A DNA stretch of 64,000 nt from Nodosilinea sp. LEGE 06152 (GTDB taxonomy: Bacteria; Cyanobacteriota; Cyanobacteriia; Phormidesmidales; Phormidesmidaceae), in NCBI RefSeq assembly GCF_015207525.1, contig NZ_JADEWR010000011.1, positions 225,462 through 289,461 on the forward strand, read 5' to 3'. The notes beneath the pieces were generated by a model. That model did not search any database. It saw only the letters and a program-made list of their open reading frames with translations, and was not told the origin of the DNA. The translations under genes and the position numbers were made by a program. Below, one piece after another: positions 11,398 through 59,638 of this stretch. Numbering within the stretch: position 1 is the first letter of the stretch; every line of letters starts with the position of its first letter.

Positions 11398-13356
11398 CTA
11401 AAATCGGGGACCAAAATTAAAGCCGTAGCCAATGCTAAGCACTGCGACGGAACCGGCGCGGGTATTGTTGCCAATGTCCCCGTAGAGTAGATTAAGGGTC
11501 AGCGGTATGGTGGGCTCGGGCACAATGGAGGCACCAACGTTCAAGCCCGCCCCGCTCCAAGCGGTGTTAATTGAAAATTGAGGATGCACCTGAAGACCAA
11601 CCCCAGCAATCACGCCGACACTGCTGTTTTCACCAGAAAAATAACCGCTTCCCGCGCCCAGGGTAGCTGTAATCGGCAAACGATTGCCCGGGTTCTCGGG
11701 CTGTAGCAAACGCGCTGCCGTTACAACGCCGTACACGCTAGTGCTAGTACCCGCTGCGTCAGATCCATAGGAAGCAAAGTTGTTTACCCCTACGGCTGCA
11801 GCAACTTGAGTGTCATCACTGCTGTAGATGTGGCGGTGCACTTTGGCATCAAAACTGCCATTTTCACCAAACCGACGAATACTCTGCAGGTTGTAGGCCA
11901 GTTCTACCCCTACGGCCCGCTGCGCATCGCCCAGCCCAAAGCCCATTGAGAAGCTGCCGTCGGCCTCGGCCCGCAGGCGATCGGCCCCGGAGAGCGAAGC
12001 GCTGAAGAATACATCTCCCCAGTCAGCCCCAAAAGCAGAGGGAATGCCCGCATTGGGCGAGGGCGGAAAGCTTTGAGCCGGGTTGGCTGCAGTGGTTAGC
12101 GGCTCAATGCGCAGATCGTTGCGCAGCTGGTCTGCCGCTGGGGTAGACGGTGTTGCCTGGGCAACAGTTACCGCTGACGGCTGCGCCGCTGGCCGAGGGA
12201 CGACGGCCAATTCTGCTGAGGAGCCTGAGGGCACATCTACGGGTTCTGGCGACAGATTAACGGCTCGTCCCGAGGACATGACCGGCTGTGGAGTCGGCAA
12301 CGCCAGGGCGACATTGGGAGTCTGCCCCGGTAACGGGGGGAGCTGAGGAGCATTGACAACCGGAGCTACTCTAGCCGCGATCGGCTTCTGTGGCTGAACC
12401 GACAGTCTACGGCGAGCCGATCGCGACGGTAGGGTGGGCAGCTGCGGCCCTCGGCTGAGCGTTTCGGGCCGAGACACCTGGCGCGGGGAAGCAGCAGGGG
12501 CAGCGGTAGAATCGGTAGCGGTGAGCGGCTCTTCAATACCGTAGGCCGATCGCAGGTCGTGCAGCAACGCCTGTACCGTTGCGGCCCGCGATTGCAGAGA
12601 CGCTAAATTCGTTGGGCGATTAGGGGCAGCGAGCGCCGTATCAGGCCGCTGAATGGCCTGGGCCAGGGGCTTAGCAGCGGGCTTGGAGGCGATCGCAGCA
12701 AACGGCTCGGCGGCGGGAACAGAGGTCGCTGGGGATTCAGGCGCAGACGGCTCTAGGGGAGCAGCCGCAGCGGTGACGGCAGGACTAGCGATCGCCTCAC
12801 TTTCAGCCTGAAGCGCACTCTGGTGTGCACTTTGGGAAATCTCACTCTGGGAAACAGCATCCGCTGGCTCAGGCGAATCGATCGCAGACAGCGGCACCGG
12901 GGCAGCATCGGTTGATTGCTCAGCCAGACCGTGGCCCGATATTTCTGAAGAGGGGGATGCAACAACCGACGCGGGTGTCGGCAAAGCCGCTGTGGCTTCT
13001 GGGACAGCGAGGTCGGCCTTGGTGCTGCGGTTTGAAACAGCAGTGTCTAGAACCGTCGGCTCGGGCTGGGCACTGGGCACTGGGGCGAGTTCTACCGCCG
13101 CTGCCAAAGATGAGTCACCCTCGGGAGTCCAGGTTGGCTGAGCCACACCCTGGTTTTCGGTTTGGGGTGCGGTCGTCTGGGCCGAAGGCTCAGGCACAAC
13201 CACCGAATGCGGATCTTCGGCCAGAGTCACACCCAGGCTTGGGCTGAGAACCGCGACCGGCAGGCTGGTATTGGCCTCGGCTCCCTGAGGCAGCAGCCCC
13301 AAACCGGCCAGCCCCAGCAGCCCGCCAGTAATCAGGGGTTTCGATTTACGCTTCAT
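11398..13356 (-). CDS. Pro/Ala-rich secreted protein with probable outer-membrane barrel C-terminus
   Basis: 652 residues. It has a signal peptide (KRKSKPLITGGLLGLAGLGL, cleavage after GAEA). Residues ~30-430 are low-complexity, rich in Pro, Ala, Ser, Glu and Gln, like a periplasm- or wall-spanning linker. The last ~200 residues alternate polar and hydrophobic residues with many Gly and aromatics and end YGFNFGPRF with a terminal Phe, the usual signal for barrel insertion by BamA. ATG at 13356 follows a GAGGAG site. It sits 61 bp downstream of the Wzc-like gene. The function is unknown; an outer-membrane partner of the export machinery is inferred. Confidence 0.75.
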   Translation of the reverse strand: MKRKSKPLITGGLLGLAGLGLLPQGAEANTSLPVAVLSPSLGVTLAEDPHSVVVPEPSAQTTAPQTENQGVAQPTWTPEGDSSLAAAVELAPVPSAQPEPTVLDTAVSNRSTKADLAVPEATAALPTPASVVASPSSEISGHGLAEQSTDAAPVPLSAIDSPEPADAVSQSEISQSAHQSALQAESEAIASPAVTAAAAPLEPSAPESPATSVPAAEPFAAIASKPAAKPLAQAIQRPDTALAAPNRPTNLASLQSRAATVQALLHDLRSAYGIEEPLTATDSTAAPAASPRQVSRPETLSRGPQLPTLPSRSARRRLSVQPQKPIAARVAPVVNAPQLPPLPGQTPNVALALPTPQPVMSSGRAVNLSPEPVDVPSGSSAELAVVPRPAAQPSAVTVAQATPSTPAADQLRNDLRIEPLTTAANPAQSFPPSPNAGIPSAFGADWGDVFFSASLSGADRLRAEADGSFSMGFGLGDAQRAVGVELAYNLQSIRRFGENGSFDAKVHRHIYSSDDTQVAAAVGVNNFASYGSDAAGTSTSVYGVVTAARLLQPENPGNRLPITATLGAGSGYFSGENSSVGVIAGVGLQVHPQFSINTAWSGAGLNVGASIVPEPTIPLTLNLLYGDIGNNTRAGSVAVLSIGYGFNFGPRF

Positions 13357-13417: not shown

Positions 13418-15727
13418 CTAGACGTTTTCCTCCAGCCCAACCGCCACCTGGGGGCGGCCATAGTAGCCGTAGTAATAGTCGTAGCCACTCTGCCGACTCT
13501 GGGGTACACCATTAACCACTAGCCCCAGCAGCGGAGCCTGGGCAGTGTTGCCCAAGTCGGCCAGCACCCGCTGAATTTCCGATCGCTCCGATCGATGCAG
13601 CCGCACTACCAGCAGCAGCCCGTCAGCATGAGCCGCCGTAAGTTTAGCGTCGATCATGCCGGACAGAGGCGGTGTATCAAAAATGATTAGGTCGTAGTGG
13701 CGGCGAAACTGCTCAGTGAGCTGCTGCATCTTCCGAGACGACAACAGCCGACCGGGGGCAGGCGGGCGAGCCCCGGCGGTCAGCAGGTGCAGGTTGGGGT
13801 TGCCCGGCAGCTGCAGCACCAAGTCGTTGGGGTCATCAATGGCCTGGGTAATCAAGTCGCTCAGCCCCTGGCGATTGGGCTGGGCAAAGATCAGGTGCTG
13901 GCTGGGCTTGCGCAAATCGCCGTCAATTAGCAGCACTCGACGGCCCATATTGGCCGCCGCGATCGCCAGGTGAGCGCAGACGGTCGACTTTCCCTCCCCC
14001 GGCACCGAAGAGGTCAGCGCCACCACCTGCACCGGCACGTCAGAACTGAGCATGCGCAGGTTGGCCTCAAGGGAGTAAAACGCCTCGGCAAAGCTGAAGG
14101 AGGTGTAGAGCTTTTCGGGGCTCTGGCTCTGGGTCAGCACATCAGCCATAGTGGCGGCCAGATTGGGCTCGATCAGCAGCGGCTGCTTTTGCAGGGCTGG
14201 GGCGTTGGGTATCGTCGCCAGGTTGGGTAGTTGAGTTGTTTTAATCAGCTCGTCGGTGCTGTGAAAAGCCTGATCGATGCGATCGCGCAGCAGCGCCGCC
14301 ACCCCGCCCAGCATCAACCCCACCACCGTGCTAAGCAGCAGGTTGCGGGGCAAGTTGGTTGTCTTGGTAATGCTCGACTCGCTGAGGGGAGAGATAATCT
14401 CCCAGGGAGACGCCTGCCGGGCCATCTGCAGCCGCATCTCCTGGCGACTGGCCAGCAGCTGGTTGAGGCTGCTTTCGGCCACCGTCAGCTCACGGTCAAT
14501 TTGCTGAAACGATCGCGACAGATCGGCCAGCCGCTGAATTTCGGCCTGCAGCTGCCGCACCGTCTGACCAATCGCCTGATCCTGGGTTTGCAGCACCTGC
14601 ATCTGGTTGGCGGTATCCACTAGCTGCTGCATCAACCCCTGGCTCACCGAGCCTTTGTAGCCCAGGGTATCGGCTTCCACAGCTTCCCCCACCAGCCGCT
14701 GGGCCTCGGTTTCGAGCAGGGGCAACAGCTGCTGCCGCTGGTCTTCCAGGGCTTCGATCATGGGCGTATCGGTTTGAAACCGGGCCGATTCGGCGGCAAT
14801 GGTTTGCTCTAACTCGCGCAAATCTCCCAGCAGCGCTTGGTAGGTGGGCGACTCATTGAGGTTGGCCACCCGAATAGCCGTATCGGGGTCAAAGCCCACC
14901 TGGTCGCGCAGATTGTCGTACAGCGGCTCCAGGGCAGTTAGCTCTACCCGCAGCTGCTCTTGATCGGCCAGCATTTGGTTGAGGCGCTGGGTCACGCTTT
15001 CGCTGGTGGCGTTGACGTTGACGATGTCGTAGCGCTTCTGAAACTCACTCAGGTCGCTCTCAATGGCCTCAACCTCCTGCCATTTCTCCTGCAGCTGCTC
15101 GTCTAAAAACGTTAGCCCCCGGCGCAAGTCACCCTGACGGTCCTGCACGCTGTAGTCAACAAAGCCTTCAATCACCTGGTCGAGCACAAACGATACCACC
15201 GCCGGGTCGGCATCGTTGTAGGTGACGCGCAGCACCTTTGATTCCCCTTCCTGAACAATCGACAGGCGGCTGAGCAGCGCGTTGTAGGTAATGTTGGGGT
15301 AACGGCGCTGAATGTTGGCCAAGATAGGTTCGATCACCGCCGGGCCGCGCAGCACCCGAATTTGGCTGTCGTAGTCGAGCCCTGATGCCCCACCGCCCTG
15401 GGCCCCAACGACATTCTCCAGCGCTAGGGGGGTAACGTTAGTGACGGGCTCGACTAAAAGGTTAACGCTGCCGCTATAGGCCGGAGGACGGCTCAGATGC
15501 CAGAGGGTTAACCCACCAAAGGACAGGGCCGCAACCCCTAGAAAGACTCCGGCTCGACGCTTGAGCACCCCGATCAGCTGGCTGAAGTCAACGTCATCGC
15601 CCTTCTCCACTAAGGAGGGGGGTGGAGCCATCACAGGCACAAACTCGGGCCTGCCAGAGCCATGACCGTTGCCATGACCGTTGCCATGACCGTTAGTTTC
15701 GCGGGGTGTGGAGGAGGGAAAAGGCAT
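13418..15727 (-). CDS. wzc: Wzc-like polysaccharide co-polymerase and tyrosine autokinase
   Basis: 769 residues. An N-terminal GHGNGHGNGHG repeat comes first. A first membrane segment near residue 55 (AGVFLGVAALSFGGLTLW) opens the Wzz domain, which has long coiled-coil stretches to about 450. A second membrane segment (NLLLSTVVGLMLGGVAALL) follows. The cytoplasmic BY-kinase domain has Walker A VPGEGKST near residue 578, Walker A' LLIDGDLRKP and Walker B LIIFDTPP. The tail YDYYYGYYGRP holds six tyrosines, the usual autophosphorylation cluster. Such proteins control polymer length and export together with Wza. It lies 157 bp downstream of the wza-like gene. Confidence 0.93.
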   Translation of the reverse strand: MPFPSSTPRETNGHGNGHGNGHGSGRPEFVPVMAPPPSLVEKGDDVDFSQLIGVLKRRAGVFLGVAALSFGGLTLWHLSRPPAYSGSVNLLVEPVTNVTPLALENVVGAQGGGASGLDYDSQIRVLRGPAVIEPILANIQRRYPNITYNALLSRLSIVQEGESKVLRVTYNDADPAVVSFVLDQVIEGFVDYSVQDRQGDLRRGLTFLDEQLQEKWQEVEAIESDLSEFQKRYDIVNVNATSESVTQRLNQMLADQEQLRVELTALEPLYDNLRDQVGFDPDTAIRVANLNESPTYQALLGDLRELEQTIAAESARFQTDTPMIEALEDQRQQLLPLLETEAQRLVGEAVEADTLGYKGSVSQGLMQQLVDTANQMQVLQTQDQAIGQTVRQLQAEIQRLADLSRSFQQIDRELTVAESSLNQLLASRQEMRLQMARQASPWEIISPLSESSITKTTNLPRNLLLSTVVGLMLGGVAALLRDRIDQAFHSTDELIKTTQLPNLATIPNAPALQKQPLLIEPNLAATMADVLTQSQSPEKLYTSFSFAEAFYSLEANLRMLSSDVPVQVVALTSSVPGEGKSTVCAHLAIAAANMGRRVLLIDGDLRKPSQHLIFAQPNRQGLSDLITQAIDDPNDLVLQLPGNPNLHLLTAGARPPAPGRLLSSRKMQQLTEQFRRHYDLIIFDTPPLSGMIDAKLTAAHADGLLLVVRLHRSERSEIQRVLADLGNTAQAPLLGLVVNGVPQSRQSGYDYYYGYYGRPQVAVGLEENV

Positions 15728-47221: not shown

Positions 47222-48421
47222 TTAGCCGCAGCACAGGGCTGGGCCAGTGGGGTACTCCAGGGCGGTCAGCTGGGTAGGTTTGGGGGTGACCTGCTCCTGG
47301 GGAGTCAGCCAGTAGGTGGTCATGCTGTCGCCATTTTTAAGACAAACCGGACCGCGAGGCTTGAGGGTAAAGTGGTCTTTGAGGTGAGCGTAGGCCAGCT
47401 CTGACACCTGAATTTTGCCAGCCTCGCCGGTCGTTTCCATAAAGCTGGCGATGTTGACAGTGTCGCCCCAGAGATCGTAGATAAATTTGCGAATGCCGAT
47501 TACTCCAGCGACAACGCTGCCTGAGTTAATGCCGATGCGCAGCCGGAAGGGATGACCGTCGGGCCGCTGAAAGTCGCTGATGGTGGCCTGCATGTCTAAG
47601 GCCATTTGAGCGATCGCCTGGGCGTGGTCGGGGCGGGGGCAGGGCACGCCGGCGGCTACCATATAGGCGTCCCCGATGGTCTTGATTTTTTCTAGCTTGT
47701 AGATGGCGGCCAGCTCGTCGAAGCGAGAAAACATTCGATTGAGTAGATGCACCAGGTCGCAGGGGGCCAGCTGGGCCGCCACGGGGCTAAAGCCCACGAT
47801 ATCGGCAAACAAAATAGTGACGGCGTCAAACTGGTCGGCGATCGCCTGCTCCCGCTCTTTGAGGCGCTGGGCAATTTGGAAGGGCAGCACGTTAGTCAAT
47901 AGCTCCTCAGAACGCTGGCGCTGGCGGCGAAGTTCGGCTTCAACCTGCTGACGTTCTTTAATTTCGGCCTGGAGCTGTTGGTTTTGGGCCTTTAGCTGCT
48001 GCTGCTGTCGCCGCAGGGCCAGCTGATGCTTAACCCGCAGCAGTACCTCGTAGGCCATGAAGGGCTTGACGATATAATCGGCTGCCCCAAGGCCAAACGC
48101 CTGCTCTTTTTCGGTTTCGGCGTCGCGGGCGGTCAGAAAAATAATCGGGATGCTCTGGGTGCTCTCGCTCACCTTAAGCTGACGGCAAACCTCAAAACCA
48201 TCCATCGTAGGCATGGTGATATCGAGCAAGATCAGGTCTGGGGGAGCCAGCGCAATGGCGTTTAGGGCCAGGGCACCGCTAATGGCCTTACGGCAGCGGT
48301 AGCCCTCGGATTCCAGAATGGTAGACAGTACCCGCAGGTTGTCAGGTATATCGTCTACCAGGAGAATGTCTGCATCCTTAATATCTGCATCCTGATGGTG
48401 AGGGGGAACAGCGGTAGTCAT
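47222..48421 (-). CDS. Response-regulator/class III nucleotide cyclase fusion
   Basis: 399 residues. The receiver domain has ILLVDDIPDNLRVLS, LILLDITMPTMDG (phosphoacceptor Asp), FLTARD and DYIVKPF. A coiled linker at 140-190 leads to a class III cyclase domain with FADIVGFSPVAA (metal Asp), KIKTIGDAYMVAAGVP (Lys for adenine plus second metal Asp) and DLWGDTVNIAS (adenine-side Asp and the Asn). The position usually held by the transition-state Arg after NIAS is Phe (residue 327), which may reduce activity. If active it would make cAMP. Its start is 12 bp past the stop of the hybrid kinase, so the two form an operon. Confidence 0.92.
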   Translation of the reverse strand: MTTAVPPHHQDADIKDADILLVDDIPDNLRVLSTILESEGYRCRKAISGALALNAIALAPPDLILLDITMPTMDGFEVCRQLKVSESTQSIPIIFLTARDAETEKEQAFGLGAADYIVKPFMAYEVLLRVKHQLALRRQQQQLKAQNQQLQAEIKERQQVEAELRRQRQRSEELLTNVLPFQIAQRLKEREQAIADQFDAVTILFADIVGFSPVAAQLAPCDLVHLLNRMFSRFDELAAIYKLEKIKTIGDAYMVAAGVPCPRPDHAQAIAQMALDMQATISDFQRPDGHPFRLRIGINSGSVVAGVIGIRKFIYDLWGDTVNIASFMETTGEAGKIQVSELAYAHLKDHFTLKPRGPVCLKNGDSMTTYWLTPQEQVTPKPTQLTALEYPTGPALCCG

Positions 48422-48433
48422 AGGTTCGATCGG

Positions 48434-51400
48434 CTACAGGGAAAGCGTTGAGGAGGGAACAGCGGTGAGGTCGATGATGACATCGAGACGAAAATCGTTG
48501 ACTAGACGATTTAACCGCTGCGCTAGGGGGTCTTGTTCGGGGGGAAGCTGGGCGATGAGCTGACGGACGCGGCGGTCGTCAGCGGCTTGAGCAGCCTGGT
48601 GAACCTGGCTGAGCCAGTCGGGGGTAAGCAAACTTAAGTCAGCCTCGGTGAGGGGGCGATGATCTTTAATCGAGCTTTGTCCGCTGTAATCGGGCTGGGC
48701 TGCTGTAGTCTCCTGGAGCCGGTGTTTGACCATCGAGCTATCTTCATCGAGCTGAGACCCACTGGTGTACTGATAGGCGAGGTTTAGGCTCCGGCCAATG
48801 TGCTCGAGCAGCACCCGACGCTGAAGGGGTTTTGGCAGCACGGCATCACAGCCCGCCGTAAGGCAGTCTGAGCGCTGCTCCTCAAAGACACTGGCGGTCA
48901 CCGCAATAATCGTGGTGGTAGCACCCCCAGGCAGCTGGCGAACCCGACGCGCCACGGCATAGCCGTCGAGCACGGGCATGCGCATGTCAAGGCAGATCAG
49001 GTGAGGTTGCCACGCCTGCCACAGGGCAATAGCCTCTTCACCCTGGCTGGCTTCGCGCACCTCAAACCCAGCTCCCTCTAGCCAGTGGCGAATCAGCAGT
49101 CGACTCTCGGCCACATCGTCAGCGACTAGAATTCGGGGGGCGGGCTGGTGTGAGGCCAGGTGCACAATGTCGTAGTCAGGCTGCTCTAAGCCAGCGGCAA
49201 CAACCCCCGAGGGCTGGTCTTTGACAATCGCGGCCATACCCACGGGCAAACTGACCGTGAAGGTCGAGCCCACCCCTGACTGGCTCGTCACGGTGATGTC
49301 GCCCCCCATCAGTTGAGCAAAGTTGTAGCTGAGCGACAGCCCCAACCCGGTGCCTTCAGCGGAACGCCGCCCCGACTGAGTTTGGTGAAAGGGCTGAAAC
49401 AGGTGGGCAATTTCTTCTGAGTCAATGCCTACGCCAGTGTCTTGCACCTCGATGTTGAGCCGGTAGGGCTGAGCCGGATCGCTCAGGTTTGGATGCAGGC
49501 GCGATCGCACCACAACGCTGCCCTGGTGCGTAAATTTGATCGCGTTGCCAATCAGGTTAATTAAAATCTGCCGCAGTTTACTCTCGTCGGCCCATAGCTG
49601 GTGGGGCAACGGCGGCGGCACCACCGCTAGCTGAATTCCCTTGGCTTCAGCCTTGAGCTGCAGCAGGTCATCCACGGCCTGCAAGAGTTGGTGCAGGTCA
49701 AAGACCCCGTTGTTAAGGGTAATTTTGTTGGCCTCTATTTTGGCCAACGACAGCACGTTGTTGACCAACCCCAGCAGGTGGTTACCGCTGCGGTTGACAA
49801 TGGCAATCAGGTCGCGGTGGGCCGCATCTAGACTGTCGTCGTCGTGCAAAATTTGGGTAAAGCCCAGAATGGCGTTGAGAGGAGTTCGCAGTTCGTGGCT
49901 CATGCTGGCCAAAAAGTCGCTCTTGGCCTGGCTTGCGGCATCGGCAGCGCGTTTAGCCACCGCTAGCGCCTGGGCCTGCTGCTGGGTCTGCCGCAGCAGG
50001 TCGGCCTGTTGTACGGCCGTACCCAGGTGAGTACCGACCTGAAGCACCATTTTGACTTCGTTGCGAGCCCAGGTGCGCGGATAGTGGTGGGCGTAGATGC
50101 CCAGCAGCCCCCAGAGCTGGCTGCCAGCAAAAATAGGCACAATGACGTAGGCACGCACCTGCCATCGCTCTAGAAACTCCAGGTAACAGGTATCAAACCC
50201 TTCGGTGTAGATATCGTTGACGCGGTGATAGGTGCGGTCTTGGCGGTAGGTTTCTGCCTGGGTTTCTTGCAGGTAAGTATCTTCGAGCAGCAGATAGCCA
50301 TCGTCAAAACCGCCGCTTTGCAGTTGGCGAGCACCGCAGTCGTCCTGGTCAATGAGGCGATCGCTGACTGTTGCCGTCGCCAGCGTAGAAGGGGCCGTGG
50401 AGTCAGTGAGCGCTTCGGCTACTACAGTACCGCTCCAGTCAGGGTTGAAGCGGTAGATCCAGACGCGATCGCAGCTGAGAGCCTGCTGCAGTTCTTCAGT
50501 GGTGGCGGCAAAAATAGCCTCCAGATCCAGGGTTTGGCGCATGCGCTGCACAATTTGCATCACCGCTTTTTCACGGTTGGCCACGGCTCGTACCGCCACC
50601 TCGGCCTGCTTTTGCATCGTAATGTCGCTGCAGGTGCACACCACCCGTTCTACCTGCCCCGCCTCGTTCAGCTGGGGGTCAACATTTACCAGCAGCCAGC
50701 GCGGCGGGTCGGCCTCGGTAGCACTGACCCCCATGACCACATCCCCTAAAGGCGCTTTTTGGGCGATCGCCCGCTGCACCGGCAGATCTGCTAGTGCAAA
50801 AGGCGTGCCGTTCTCATTCTGAATGTAGCCAGCCTGACCAAACACCAGGGGGTGGCCCTCTCCTTCGGGCAGGTGCAGCAGCAGCTGAGCCGCTTGATTG
50901 CGAATTAAAATTTCGGCTTTGGCGTTGAGCAGCAGCGCCCCAACTCCCATCTCGCGAATTAGGGAACGAAAGCGCTGTTCGCTATTGGTCAGGGCCACCT
51001 CCTGCAAACGCTGCTGAGTGAGGCGTCGGTTAATGCGCAGGGCGATTAGGGTCAGCAGCAAAATTACGGCGGCTCCGAGCCCCACGGCTAAAGCTAGCCA
51101 CTGAGCCTTGAAATTGGGTAGCGCTGCTACACTCGCAGTCAAATGATTGGTTAGATCAGCGGCTATATCATTGGGCTGAAACGCTGTGGCAGCCATAGCG
51201 GTATAGTGCAGGCCGCCAATGGCGATGCCTAAAGTTGGTACCGCTAACTTAGCAAACCAGGGCTGCCCCTGCCCAGGGCGCTGCGGCGGCCAGATGTTGA
51301 GCACTAGTGCTGCCGTCGAGGCGACTACGGCTATGACCACCGAGAGGGCAACTAGAGGCCAGTAGTAGCTCAGGTGAGCCGGTATTTCCATCGCCGCCAT

Positions 51401-51781
51401 ACCGGTGTAGTGCATCCAGGCGATCGCCAACCCCATAACCCAACCGCCAGCTACCACCCCAGGCCAGCCCAAGCTGGGCCGACTGACAATCGCCAGCGCC
51501 ACGCTAGCCGCCAGCACCGCACTCACCAGCGATAGACCCGTCATTAGAATGTCGTAGCTCACCGGCACGGGCAGTTCCAGCGCCAGCATACCGATAAAGT
51601 GAGTGGCCCAAATGCCCATGCCCATGGCTAGCCCACCACCCAGCAGCCAGGGCCACTGGTAGCGCTCTATGCTCAAAATCTGCCGCCCCAAACTCAGGGT
51701 GGTAAAAGACGCCAACACTGCAACACCCAAGGACAGGCCAATTAAGCCAGCATTGTAGTGACCGACTACCGCGTAGGGCAT
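48434..51781 (-). CDS. MHYT/PAS/GAF hybrid sensor histidine kinase
   Basis: 1115 residues. The N-terminal membrane part is an MHYT domain: WATHFIGML, AWMHYTGMAAM and GGLHYTAMAA in about seven helices. After it come a PAS domain (~270-400) and a GAF domain (~415-585) with RVWIYRFNPDW and, at residue 532, Cys in DTCYLEFLERWQVRA. The kinase core has the H-box SMSHELRTPLN, N-box LIGNAIKF, G1 DTGVGID and G2 GTGLGLSLS. A C-terminal receiver has ILVADDVAESR, ICLDMRMPVLDG and PKPLQ, and a short helical tail follows. ATG at 51781 is chosen because the MHYT domain starts here; the extension upstream is not like it. MHYT proteins are thought to sense gases such as O2, CO or NO through copper. Confidence 0.93.
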   Translation of the reverse strand: MPYAVVGHYNAGLIGLSLGVAVLASFTTLSLGRQILSIERYQWPWLLGGGLAMGMGIWATHFIGMLALELPVPVSYDILMTGLSLVSAVLAASVALAIVSRPSLGWPGVVAGGWVMGLAIAWMHYTGMAAMEIPAHLSYYWPLVALSVVIAVVASTAALVLNIWPPQRPGQGQPWFAKLAVPTLGIAIGGLHYTAMAATAFQPNDIAADLTNHLTASVAALPNFKAQWLALAVGLGAAVILLLTLIALRINRRLTQQRLQEVALTNSEQRFRSLIREMGVGALLLNAKAEILIRNQAAQLLLHLPEGEGHPLVFGQAGYIQNENGTPFALADLPVQRAIAQKAPLGDVVMGVSATEADPPRWLLVNVDPQLNEAGQVERVVCTCSDITMQKQAEVAVRAVANREKAVMQIVQRMRQTLDLEAIFAATTEELQQALSCDRVWIYRFNPDWSGTVVAEALTDSTAPSTLATATVSDRLIDQDDCGARQLQSGGFDDGYLLLEDTYLQETQAETYRQDRTYHRVNDIYTEGFDTCYLEFLERWQVRAYVIVPIFAGSQLWGLLGIYAHHYPRTWARNEVKMVLQVGTHLGTAVQQADLLRQTQQQAQALAVAKRAADAASQAKSDFLASMSHELRTPLNAILGFTQILHDDDSLDAAHRDLIAIVNRSGNHLLGLVNNVLSLAKIEANKITLNNGVFDLHQLLQAVDDLLQLKAEAKGIQLAVVPPPLPHQLWADESKLRQILINLIGNAIKFTHQGSVVVRSRLHPNLSDPAQPYRLNIEVQDTGVGIDSEEIAHLFQPFHQTQSGRRSAEGTGLGLSLSYNFAQLMGGDITVTSQSGVGSTFTVSLPVGMAAIVKDQPSGVVAAGLEQPDYDIVHLASHQPAPRILVADDVAESRLLIRHWLEGAGFEVREASQGEEAIALWQAWQPHLICLDMRMPVLDGYAVARRVRQLPGGATTTIIAVTASVFEEQRSDCLTAGCDAVLPKPLQRRVLLEHIGRSLNLAYQYTSGSQLDEDSSMVKHRLQETTAAQPDYSGQSSIKDHRPLTEADLSLLTPDWLSQVHQAAQAADDRRVRQLIAQLPPEQDPLAQRLNRLVNDFRLDVIIDLTAVPSSTLSL

Positions 51782-52163
51782 TGTGATAGTTTCAACCAAA
51801 AACTTAAAAACTGGTTTGAGACGCAACCCTAGCTTTCCCGATAACGTGCCTCTCGCACCAGCAGTTAGTATCAGAGCGCACAATCTTTTTGAAGCTGCAT
51901 TACTTCCATAAAAGTAGCTTTCAAAGTATTAGCCTAGCCAGATTAAAAGCCCCTAATTCAGAGGGGCTTCAACATCCTTTAGGGAGAGAATTACTCGCTA
52001 ACTATTAATTCAACGTTCCGTTTAGATATCGGGATATCTCTTCAAGATAGATGCCCTGCTTGCGTCCTATTTTGCACCCATCTTGAGGAAAGCAAGTTTG
52101 AAACAGAATGTCTCCTGTCTTTAGGAGGATGTCAGCTAAACATGGCAGCTGTACGCAGCACTT
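51782..52163. other. 382 bp gap with argS 3' region and terminator
   Basis: No gene is visible. The region near 51782-51940 is upstream of the hybrid kinase. A hairpin at 51946-51970 (AAGCCCCT and AGGGGCTT) followed on the minus strand by TTTT is the likely end of the argS transcript. Between it and argS lie short inverted repeats: AGATATC/GATATCT at 52024-52039 and TCAAGAT/ATCTTGA at 52042-52086. They could belong to a long 3' untranslated region or a small RNA. Confidence 0.5.
51946..51970 (-). terminator. Probable Rho-independent terminator of argS
   Basis: Stem AAGCCCCT with AGGGGCTT and a 7-9 base loop, followed on the minus strand by TTTTAAT. It is about 195 bp past the argS stop, so the 3' region of that transcript would be unusually long. 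Confidence 0.65.
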
Positions 52164-58636: not shown

Positions 58637-58951
58637 ACCTTTTTTCCTTGATTCTGAAAAGCTCCGGCAAATGTGTTGTAGACAGCTAAACCCACCGCGA
58701 CTGGTGCGGCAGATCACAAACGTTAACGAACTATTTGCCTGGGCTTAACCTAGCTTGAGGAGTTTCTTAATTTAAGCCGTTGAAGATGGGGGCGGGGACC
58801 CTGCTACCACCGAGCCAGAATTCATCCAACTTGGATGACCTGAGTGCCGACCATGCCGCGATCGCCCCGTAGGTCAGTCCTGGAGCGGTTCAATTGATCG
58901 TTGCGCTTTCTGTGGGTTAGCAGTTTACCCCGGCGAACTCTAGGTATCTCA
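58637..58951. other. 315 bp gap between leuC and the Crp-type regulator
   Basis: No gene is visible and there is no clear terminator after leuC. A HIP1 site is near 58859. A TTG codon at 58901 opens a frame that runs into the regulator, but the better start is the GTG at 58952. Confidence 0.45.
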
Positions 58952-59638
58952 GTGTCTGTAACCGCAACTTCCGCTGCCCGCGATGCTGCTATTGACCCTC
59001 GCAGTCATCAGACCTTCATTCAGCTCCTAGAGCAGCTATATCGAGAACGAGCCCTGGTACCTTACCCCGCAGGACGGCCCATGCCGCTCCGGGTCGACGA
59101 AATCTTGATCATCTGTCGGGGAATTGTTCAACTGTTCACCATTCAGCAAGACGGTAGCGAGACCCTGCTGGGGCTGGCCGGGCCGTCTATGCCCGTGGGG
59201 CTGCCCCTAACCTCCGTTGACCCCTACTGGGCCACCGCCCTGACCGATGTCGACGTGCTCTCGCTGCCCATGGCCGAAATTGAAGGGTCCTCGGTGTTAA
59301 TGGCGGGCATGTTTCGCAATATTACTCTGCGGATGCAGCAGGCTGAGGCCTGGCTGGCCCTCTCGGGTAAGCGCCTGGTAGCCGATCGCCTCAAGCACTT
59401 TTTGCTCATGCTGGCCCAAGACTTTGGCCATGTTGAGCCCAGCGGTATTCGCATTCCTATGCGGCTGACCCACCACCAGCTGGCTACCGCCATTGGCACC
59501 ACCCGCGTTACCGTCACCCGCCTGCTCAAAGACTTTAAAACCGAGGGCTGGCTAACTATCGATCAGCGCCACATGGTGCTTCAGCTCGATCCTCGTTTTC
59601 CGGCCAACCAGCTCATAAACCCAATGGCTCAGCGCTAA
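58952..59638 (+). CDS. Crp/Fnr-family transcription regulator
   Basis: 228 residues. The N-terminal beta-roll has EILIICRGIVQLFTIQQDGS, but the FGE-x-A-L-x5-R phosphate-binding cassette of CRP is absent, so it probably does not bind cAMP. A dimerisation helix follows (LRMQQAEAWLALSG), then a helix-turn-helix: MRLTHHQLATAIGTTRVTVT and RLLKDFKTEGWL, close to the NtcA type. GTG at 58952 gives a usual length; an in-frame TTG at 58901 would add 17 residues. It is probably a metabolite- or redox-responsive activator; target genes are unknown. Confidence 0.85.
   Translation: MSVTATSAARDAAIDPRSHQTFIQLLEQLYRERALVPYPAGRPMPLRVDEILIICRGIVQLFTIQQDGSETLLGLAGPSMPVGLPLTSVDPYWATALTDVDVLSLPMAEIEGSSVLMAGMFRNITLRMQQAEAWLALSGKRLVADRLKHFLLMLAQDFGHVEPSGIRIPMRLTHHQLATAIGTTRVTVTRLLKDFKTEGWLTIDQRHMVLQLDPRFPANQLINPMAQR

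Follow-up and report, generated by a model that had tools for sequence, protein, structure and literature searches.

The window, a stretch of 64,000 nucleotides from Nodosilinea sp. LEGE 06152, carries on its minus strand two adjacent genes that encode a hybrid histidine kinase of 1115 residues (48434..51781; ORF and Pfam, with orthologs in 21 other genus members) and a receiver-class III cyclase of 399 residues (47222..48421; ORF, Pfam and fold match). With the last base of the kinase stop codon at 48434 and the first base of the cyclase ATG at 48421, the analysis confirms the two same-strand reading frames 12 bp apart described in an earlier note on this DNA. Alignment of the orthologs starts at the methionine at 51781, and this ATG was therefore preferred as the kinase start to a rival TTG further upstream, at 51883. 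The cyclase gene is convergent with pyrG at a distance of 16 bp, a gene that we take from its sequence to encode CTP synthase; the upstream neighbour of the pair is argS. An Rfam scan of the operon yielded no match, promoter and terminator consensus scans of the operon gave matches near chance level, and among the best 25 NCBIfam matches per protein none was above the cut-off for either the kinase or the cyclase.

Elsewhere in the window, a CRP-family regulator at 58901-59638 (HTH_Crp_2), about 7 kb from the pair, shows a weak cyclic-nucleotide-binding match and may be a non-cAMP member of its family. The ParA/MinD-like ATPase domain of a 769-residue protein (13418-15727) is confined to its C-terminal part, and no Pfam family matched the adjoining ORF of 652 residues (11398-13356) at 1e-6.

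Conservation of the gene pair

The pair was surveyed in the sampled genomes by a search for relatives combined with a comparison of flanking DNA and ORFs. The cyclase is present in 22 of the 28 genus genomes, the window included, and in every one of these species the kinase lies next to it on the same strand; the other 6 genomes lack the cyclase. The conserved signalling pair anticipated in the earlier note was thus recovered, and its retention in every cyclase-bearing member indicates that the adjacency is not due to chance. The intergenic gap ranges from -4 to ∼24 bp in 18 species and from 35 to 117 bp in the other four. In most of these 22 species the pair is flanked by argS on one side and pyrG-hisD on the other; for G016 and G002, argS, pyrG and hisD were not found within the stretch fetched around it. 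Two genus members (G001 and G015) have kinase frames that begin past the MHYT region (L140:4173-6908 and L141:4162-6912), with the GAF domain and the cyclase kept; Pfam confirms that the G001 kinase has no MHYT match. Outside the genus, G072, a member of another family, has a 57%-identical cyclase overlapped by a kinase whose GAF motifs are the same, and hybrid kinases neighbouring receiver-cyclases are also present in G056, G048, G074, Laspinema and one uncultured relative.

The kinase and its candidate light sensor

Pfam identifies MHYT (four stretches), PAS, GAF, HisKA, HATPase_c and Response_reg domains in the kinase, in agreement with the membrane MHYT sensor, PAS, GAF and receiver read earlier from the sequence, except that the PAS match (0.00084) is weak and falls below the Pfam cut-off. 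The MHYT region spans residues ∼5-215 (51137..51769, minus strand; PF03707, E 2.4e-40) and forms membrane repeats with the conserved histidines in the motifs THF60, MHYT123 and LHYT191. The HisKA phosphoacceptor domain comprises residues 619-684 (49730..49927, minus strand; Pfam and ortholog alignment) with the H-box FLASMSHELRTPLNAILGF, and the receiver residues 884-995 (48797..49132, minus strand; Pfam); the H-box and the ATP-binding boxes are intact. Ortholog alignment revealed a further, unnamed C-terminal domain (about residues 1041-1110, with residues ∼1041-1106 at 48464-48661, minus strand) that follows a poorly conserved linker, has a mean identity of 73% within the genus and is also matched in kinases that lie beside Arg-type receiver-cyclases of other families. 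An HPt domain in the kinase C-terminus is unsupported: Pfam finds no HPt match in the kinase, C-terminus included, or in the cyclase. A four-step form of the phosphorelay suggested in the earlier note would therefore require an outside HPt, and it would be simpler for the kinase to pass its phosphoryl group straight to the receiver of the cyclase. Elsewhere in the genome there are ten HPt matches.

The GAF domain (residues 419-592; 50006..50527, minus strand; Pfam and PDB sequence matches) contains the motifs CGAR, EDTYL and TCYLEFL. About 25 additional residues precede EDTYL, and the sequence DDCGAR lies within them. Comparison with PDB chains by phmmer yielded E-values down to 1.5e-40, with 3w2z among the matches; the best-matching chains are cyanobacteriochromes, an identification that for most of them is our own. 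The cysteine of TCYLEFL aligned with the canonical cysteine of the PDB matches in all five alignments shown, and EDTYL aligned with their DXCF-position motif. The entry 3w2z is AnPixJg2 (PMC5240096), and the insert-Cys cyanobacteriochromes, of which UG1 is a characterised member that carries DTYL, are defined by a second cysteine within a CXXR/K insert (PMC5240096). The insert cysteine and the aspartate of DTYL are 19 residues apart in the kinase, compared with 26 in UG1 and 14 in UG2 (published numbering).

Insert cysteine, canonical cysteine and DTYL are invariant in 22/22 genus members and likewise in a 22-row alignment that takes in G072. CXXR is present in 21 of the 22 orthologs, the exception reading CGAL (L139) with the insert cysteine itself retained. 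Given this conservation of the two cysteines and DTYL, and a genome that encodes a member of the ferredoxin-dependent bilin reductase family, light is the best-supported input. Judged from these motifs, the kinase probably senses light through a bilin-binding insert-Cys GAF domain, making it a new candidate photoreceptor.

The kinase could instead be an MHYT sensor of gas (CO or O2) with a GAF domain that binds no bilin and serves a structural role or another ligand. Elsewhere MHYT serves as a CO/O2 sensor, and in CoxC, a proven CO sensor, it detects CO with the help of copper (PMC11347149); the canonical cysteine of the kinase GAF is followed by tyrosine (Cys-Tyr) in place of histidine (Cys-His); and the AlphaFold model of the GAF domain alone is poor (mean pLDDT 65, <50 in the insert region). 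We nevertheless regard such a sensor as quite improbable in view of the slower evolution of the GAF domain (dN/dS of 0.077, against 0.145 for MHYT), the invariance of its two cysteines and DTYL, and the two species that keep the pair and an intact GAF in the absence of MHYT. The CoxC precedent makes a gas signal plausible as a second input to the kinase, and a dispensable one. The gas or light signal of the earlier note is thereby narrowed to probable bilin-based light sensing, with possible gas sensing through MHYT as a secondary element.

A cyclase with phenylalanine at the NxxxR position

Pfam assigns a Response_reg and a Guanylate_cyc domain (E 2.3e-60 for the latter) to the cyclase. As had been noticed earlier, the receiver is N-terminal; it covers residues 17-130 (48032..48373, minus strand), and its phospho-acceptor set D23 D24 D67 T97 K119 is intact. 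The class III cyclase homology domain covers residues 191-373 (47303..47851, minus strand). No change was seen at the checked positions for binding metal, base or phosphate: the metal-binding residues D207 and D251, the adenine-specifying pair K245 and D316, as well as N323 and K362, are kept in 22/22 cyclases. The transition-state NxxxR pair is broken: Asn323 is retained and the arginine is replaced by Phe327 (TTT codon, 47441..47443, minus strand) in all 22 genus members, whereas each of the 43 other receiver-cyclases compared has arginine at this position (43/43). A search of 390 cyanobacterial genomes with a DNA pattern for D-T-V-N-x-A-x-F-M-E found it in 22, all belonging to this genus (1 of 159 genera); when any codon was allowed at the Phe position, 193 genomes from 88 genera matched, and almost all of the matches listed read arginine. 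A sequencing error at Phe327 was excluded by the occurrence of the same residue, from varied codons, in 22 genomes.

The neighbouring loop K-G-K-G has become K-[NST]-G-[DE] at residues 362-365 in 22/22 cyclases, with one Gly-to-Ala exception, and this form is clade-specific. Sites specific to the clade are Q182, V214, F327, L361, G364 and D365; none of them has gained a basic residue, which excludes a compensating arginine or lysine near Phe327.

The Phe cyclases are monophyletic with a support of 100/100 and have a single origin. For five close species, dN/dS (NG86) was 0.026 in the core and 0.049 over the whole domain, compared with 0.029 and 0.032, respectively, for a paralog of these species that carries the arginine. 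The low core value shows that the cyclase is not decaying and, together with intact frames in 22 species, excludes a pseudogene. The AlphaFold model of the cyclase is good (pLDDT 88), and its fold resembles that of the active cyclases 5o5k and 5o5l with a TMt of about 0.9. Selection, model and kept binding sites thus describe a maintained and folded protein that is predicted to bind nucleotide and has lost the presumed cyclisation residue. Loss of the arginine throughout the genus despite strong conservation suggests that the protein has probably been re-purposed as a switch instead of producing cAMP in the ordinary way.

In class III cyclases the arginine aims at the alpha phosphate and is positioned as the beta7/8 loop approaches (PMC5967339); it is conserved and discussed as crucial for transition-state stabilisation (PMC12264004, PMC5967339). 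The cAMP-type output suggested in the earlier note is therefore doubtful, phenylalanine occupying the position of this arginine in every ortholog. The insert-Cys motifs of the GAF domain and the missing catalytic arginine both go beyond that note.

Were Phe327 tolerated, the locus would be an ordinary light-regulated adenylyl cyclase pair, similar to AphC/CyaC but spread over two genes, that makes cAMP upon phosphorylation. Such a pair would account for the retention of D207, D251, K245, D316 and N323 and for the close fold match to active enzymes; the genome has 21 matches to cyclic-nucleotide-binding domains, and the related G072 pair keeps the arginine. Moreover, the class III cyclases Ma1120 and Rv1900c are active without the transition-state asparagine, so that the Phe form may retain some activity. 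Against this stand the importance ascribed to the arginine, the restriction of the Phe form to one genus among 390 cyanobacterial genomes, and the altered adjacent loop with no compensating basic residue. On this evidence we consider an ordinary cyclase rather unlikely, and the output of the Phe cyclase should not be annotated as cAMP.

Proposed mechanism and comparison with known systems

Taken together, the evidence is best described by a two-gene unit for light, possibly also for gas, in which a phospho-switchable cyclase binds ATP and cyclises it poorly or only as part of a heterodimer; we put the probability of this reading at about one half. The intact kinase boxes and cyclase receiver make light- or gas-controlled phosphorylation of the latter likely. 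The kinase would phosphorylate the receiver of the adjoining cyclase, whose catalytic domain is predicted to fold and to bind Mg-ATP at the dimer interface. With the transition-state arginine lost and the phosphate-closing loop rebuilt, the homodimer would yield little or no cAMP. The cyclase may then serve as a regulator that binds nucleotide under the control of phosphorylation; its most plausible role is that of the C1-like half in a heterodimer with an Arg-bearing cyclase.

A candidate for this partner is an Arg-bearing receiver-cyclase encoded in the same genome at G000:C5:22849-24075 (L196:3847-5076). Its catalytic set DKDDNR includes the NxxxR pair, and its receiver is degenerate, the phospho-acceptor set reading DSAGQ in place of DDDTK in the Phe cyclase; similar degenerate receivers occur in L069, L075 and other loci. 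The gene was found in 21 of the 22 genomes with a Phe cyclase (the exception is 83% complete) and in 3 of the 6 other genus genomes. An obligate heterodimer could be envisaged in which the Phe cyclase provides the metal/phosphate half and the candidate partner the base/Arg half of one live site under the control of a phospho-receiver. This arrangement has precedents in tmAC, sGC and NeoR/RGC, and it would fit the complementary defects of the two proteins as well as their co-occurrence. The latter is only suggestive, since half of the genus members without a Phe cyclase have the partner, and is weak in statistical terms (p about 0.02 in a Fisher test counted by hand, with genome size and completeness as confounders); in addition, members of the partner's family, degenerate receiver included, are present in Nodosilinea and Shackletoniella loci in which no Phe form was seen. 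We therefore judge obligate heterodimerization unlikely.

More broadly, and still tentatively, the Phe cyclase could be a genus-specific pseudo-cyclase coupled to the insert-Cys kinase, binding ATP and switching upon phosphorylation, incapable of cyclisation by itself, and activating or inhibiting an Arg-bearing partner. If so, it would constitute a bacterial counterpart of NeoR/RGC, or of the C1/C2 asymmetry of tmAC, under two-component control. Loss of the arginine under purifying selection equal to that on a paralog with an intact active site offers a clear example from nature of a cyclase that has been re-purposed or reduced to a half-site, and gene order ties it to one identifiable candidate light-sensing kinase. 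Asymmetric cyclase dimers are known mainly from eukaryotes, and the Phe cyclase makes their evolution directly testable in bacteria.

CyaC of Anabaena is a single protein with receiver(s), kinase and cyclase; at the present locus kinase and cyclase are split over two genes. The phytochrome-like histidine kinase AphC has been proposed to phosphorylate and activate CyaC (PMC4284465), and the two systems share light input, here predicted, to a class III cyclase. They differ in the adjacent gene pair, the insert-Cys signature and the absence of the catalytic arginine from the cyclase described here. The kinase GAF resembles NpF2164g3, NpR1597g2, Mbr3854g4 and Mbl3738g2 in having an insert cysteine within CXXR/K, DTYL at the DXCF position and the canonical cysteine (PMC5240096). 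Known from its sequence, it is distinguished from the insert-Cys cyanobacteriochromes by Cys-Tyr instead of Cys-His, by fusion to MHYT and by its pairing with a cyclase. Closest in layout is the G072 pair, in which a kinase with an NCVIR/EDTYL/CY GAF domain lies directly upstream of the 57%-identical receiver-cyclase; that cyclase keeps the catalytic arginine, and the kinase frame is without MHYT.

As a class III domain without the transition-state arginine, the Phe cyclase is comparable to the C1 domain of tmAC and to NeoR of the chytrid rhodopsin guanylyl cyclase heterodimers; with NeoR it also shares a place in light signalling, here a predicted one. NxxxR is absent from NeoR, which shows no activity by itself and forms active heterodimers (PMC12264004), and heterodimeric cyclases such as sGC retain a non-catalytic second site (PMC8196705). 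NeoR has lost the asparagine as well (T455, K459), whereas the Phe cyclase keeps it, is bacterial and is controlled by a receiver.
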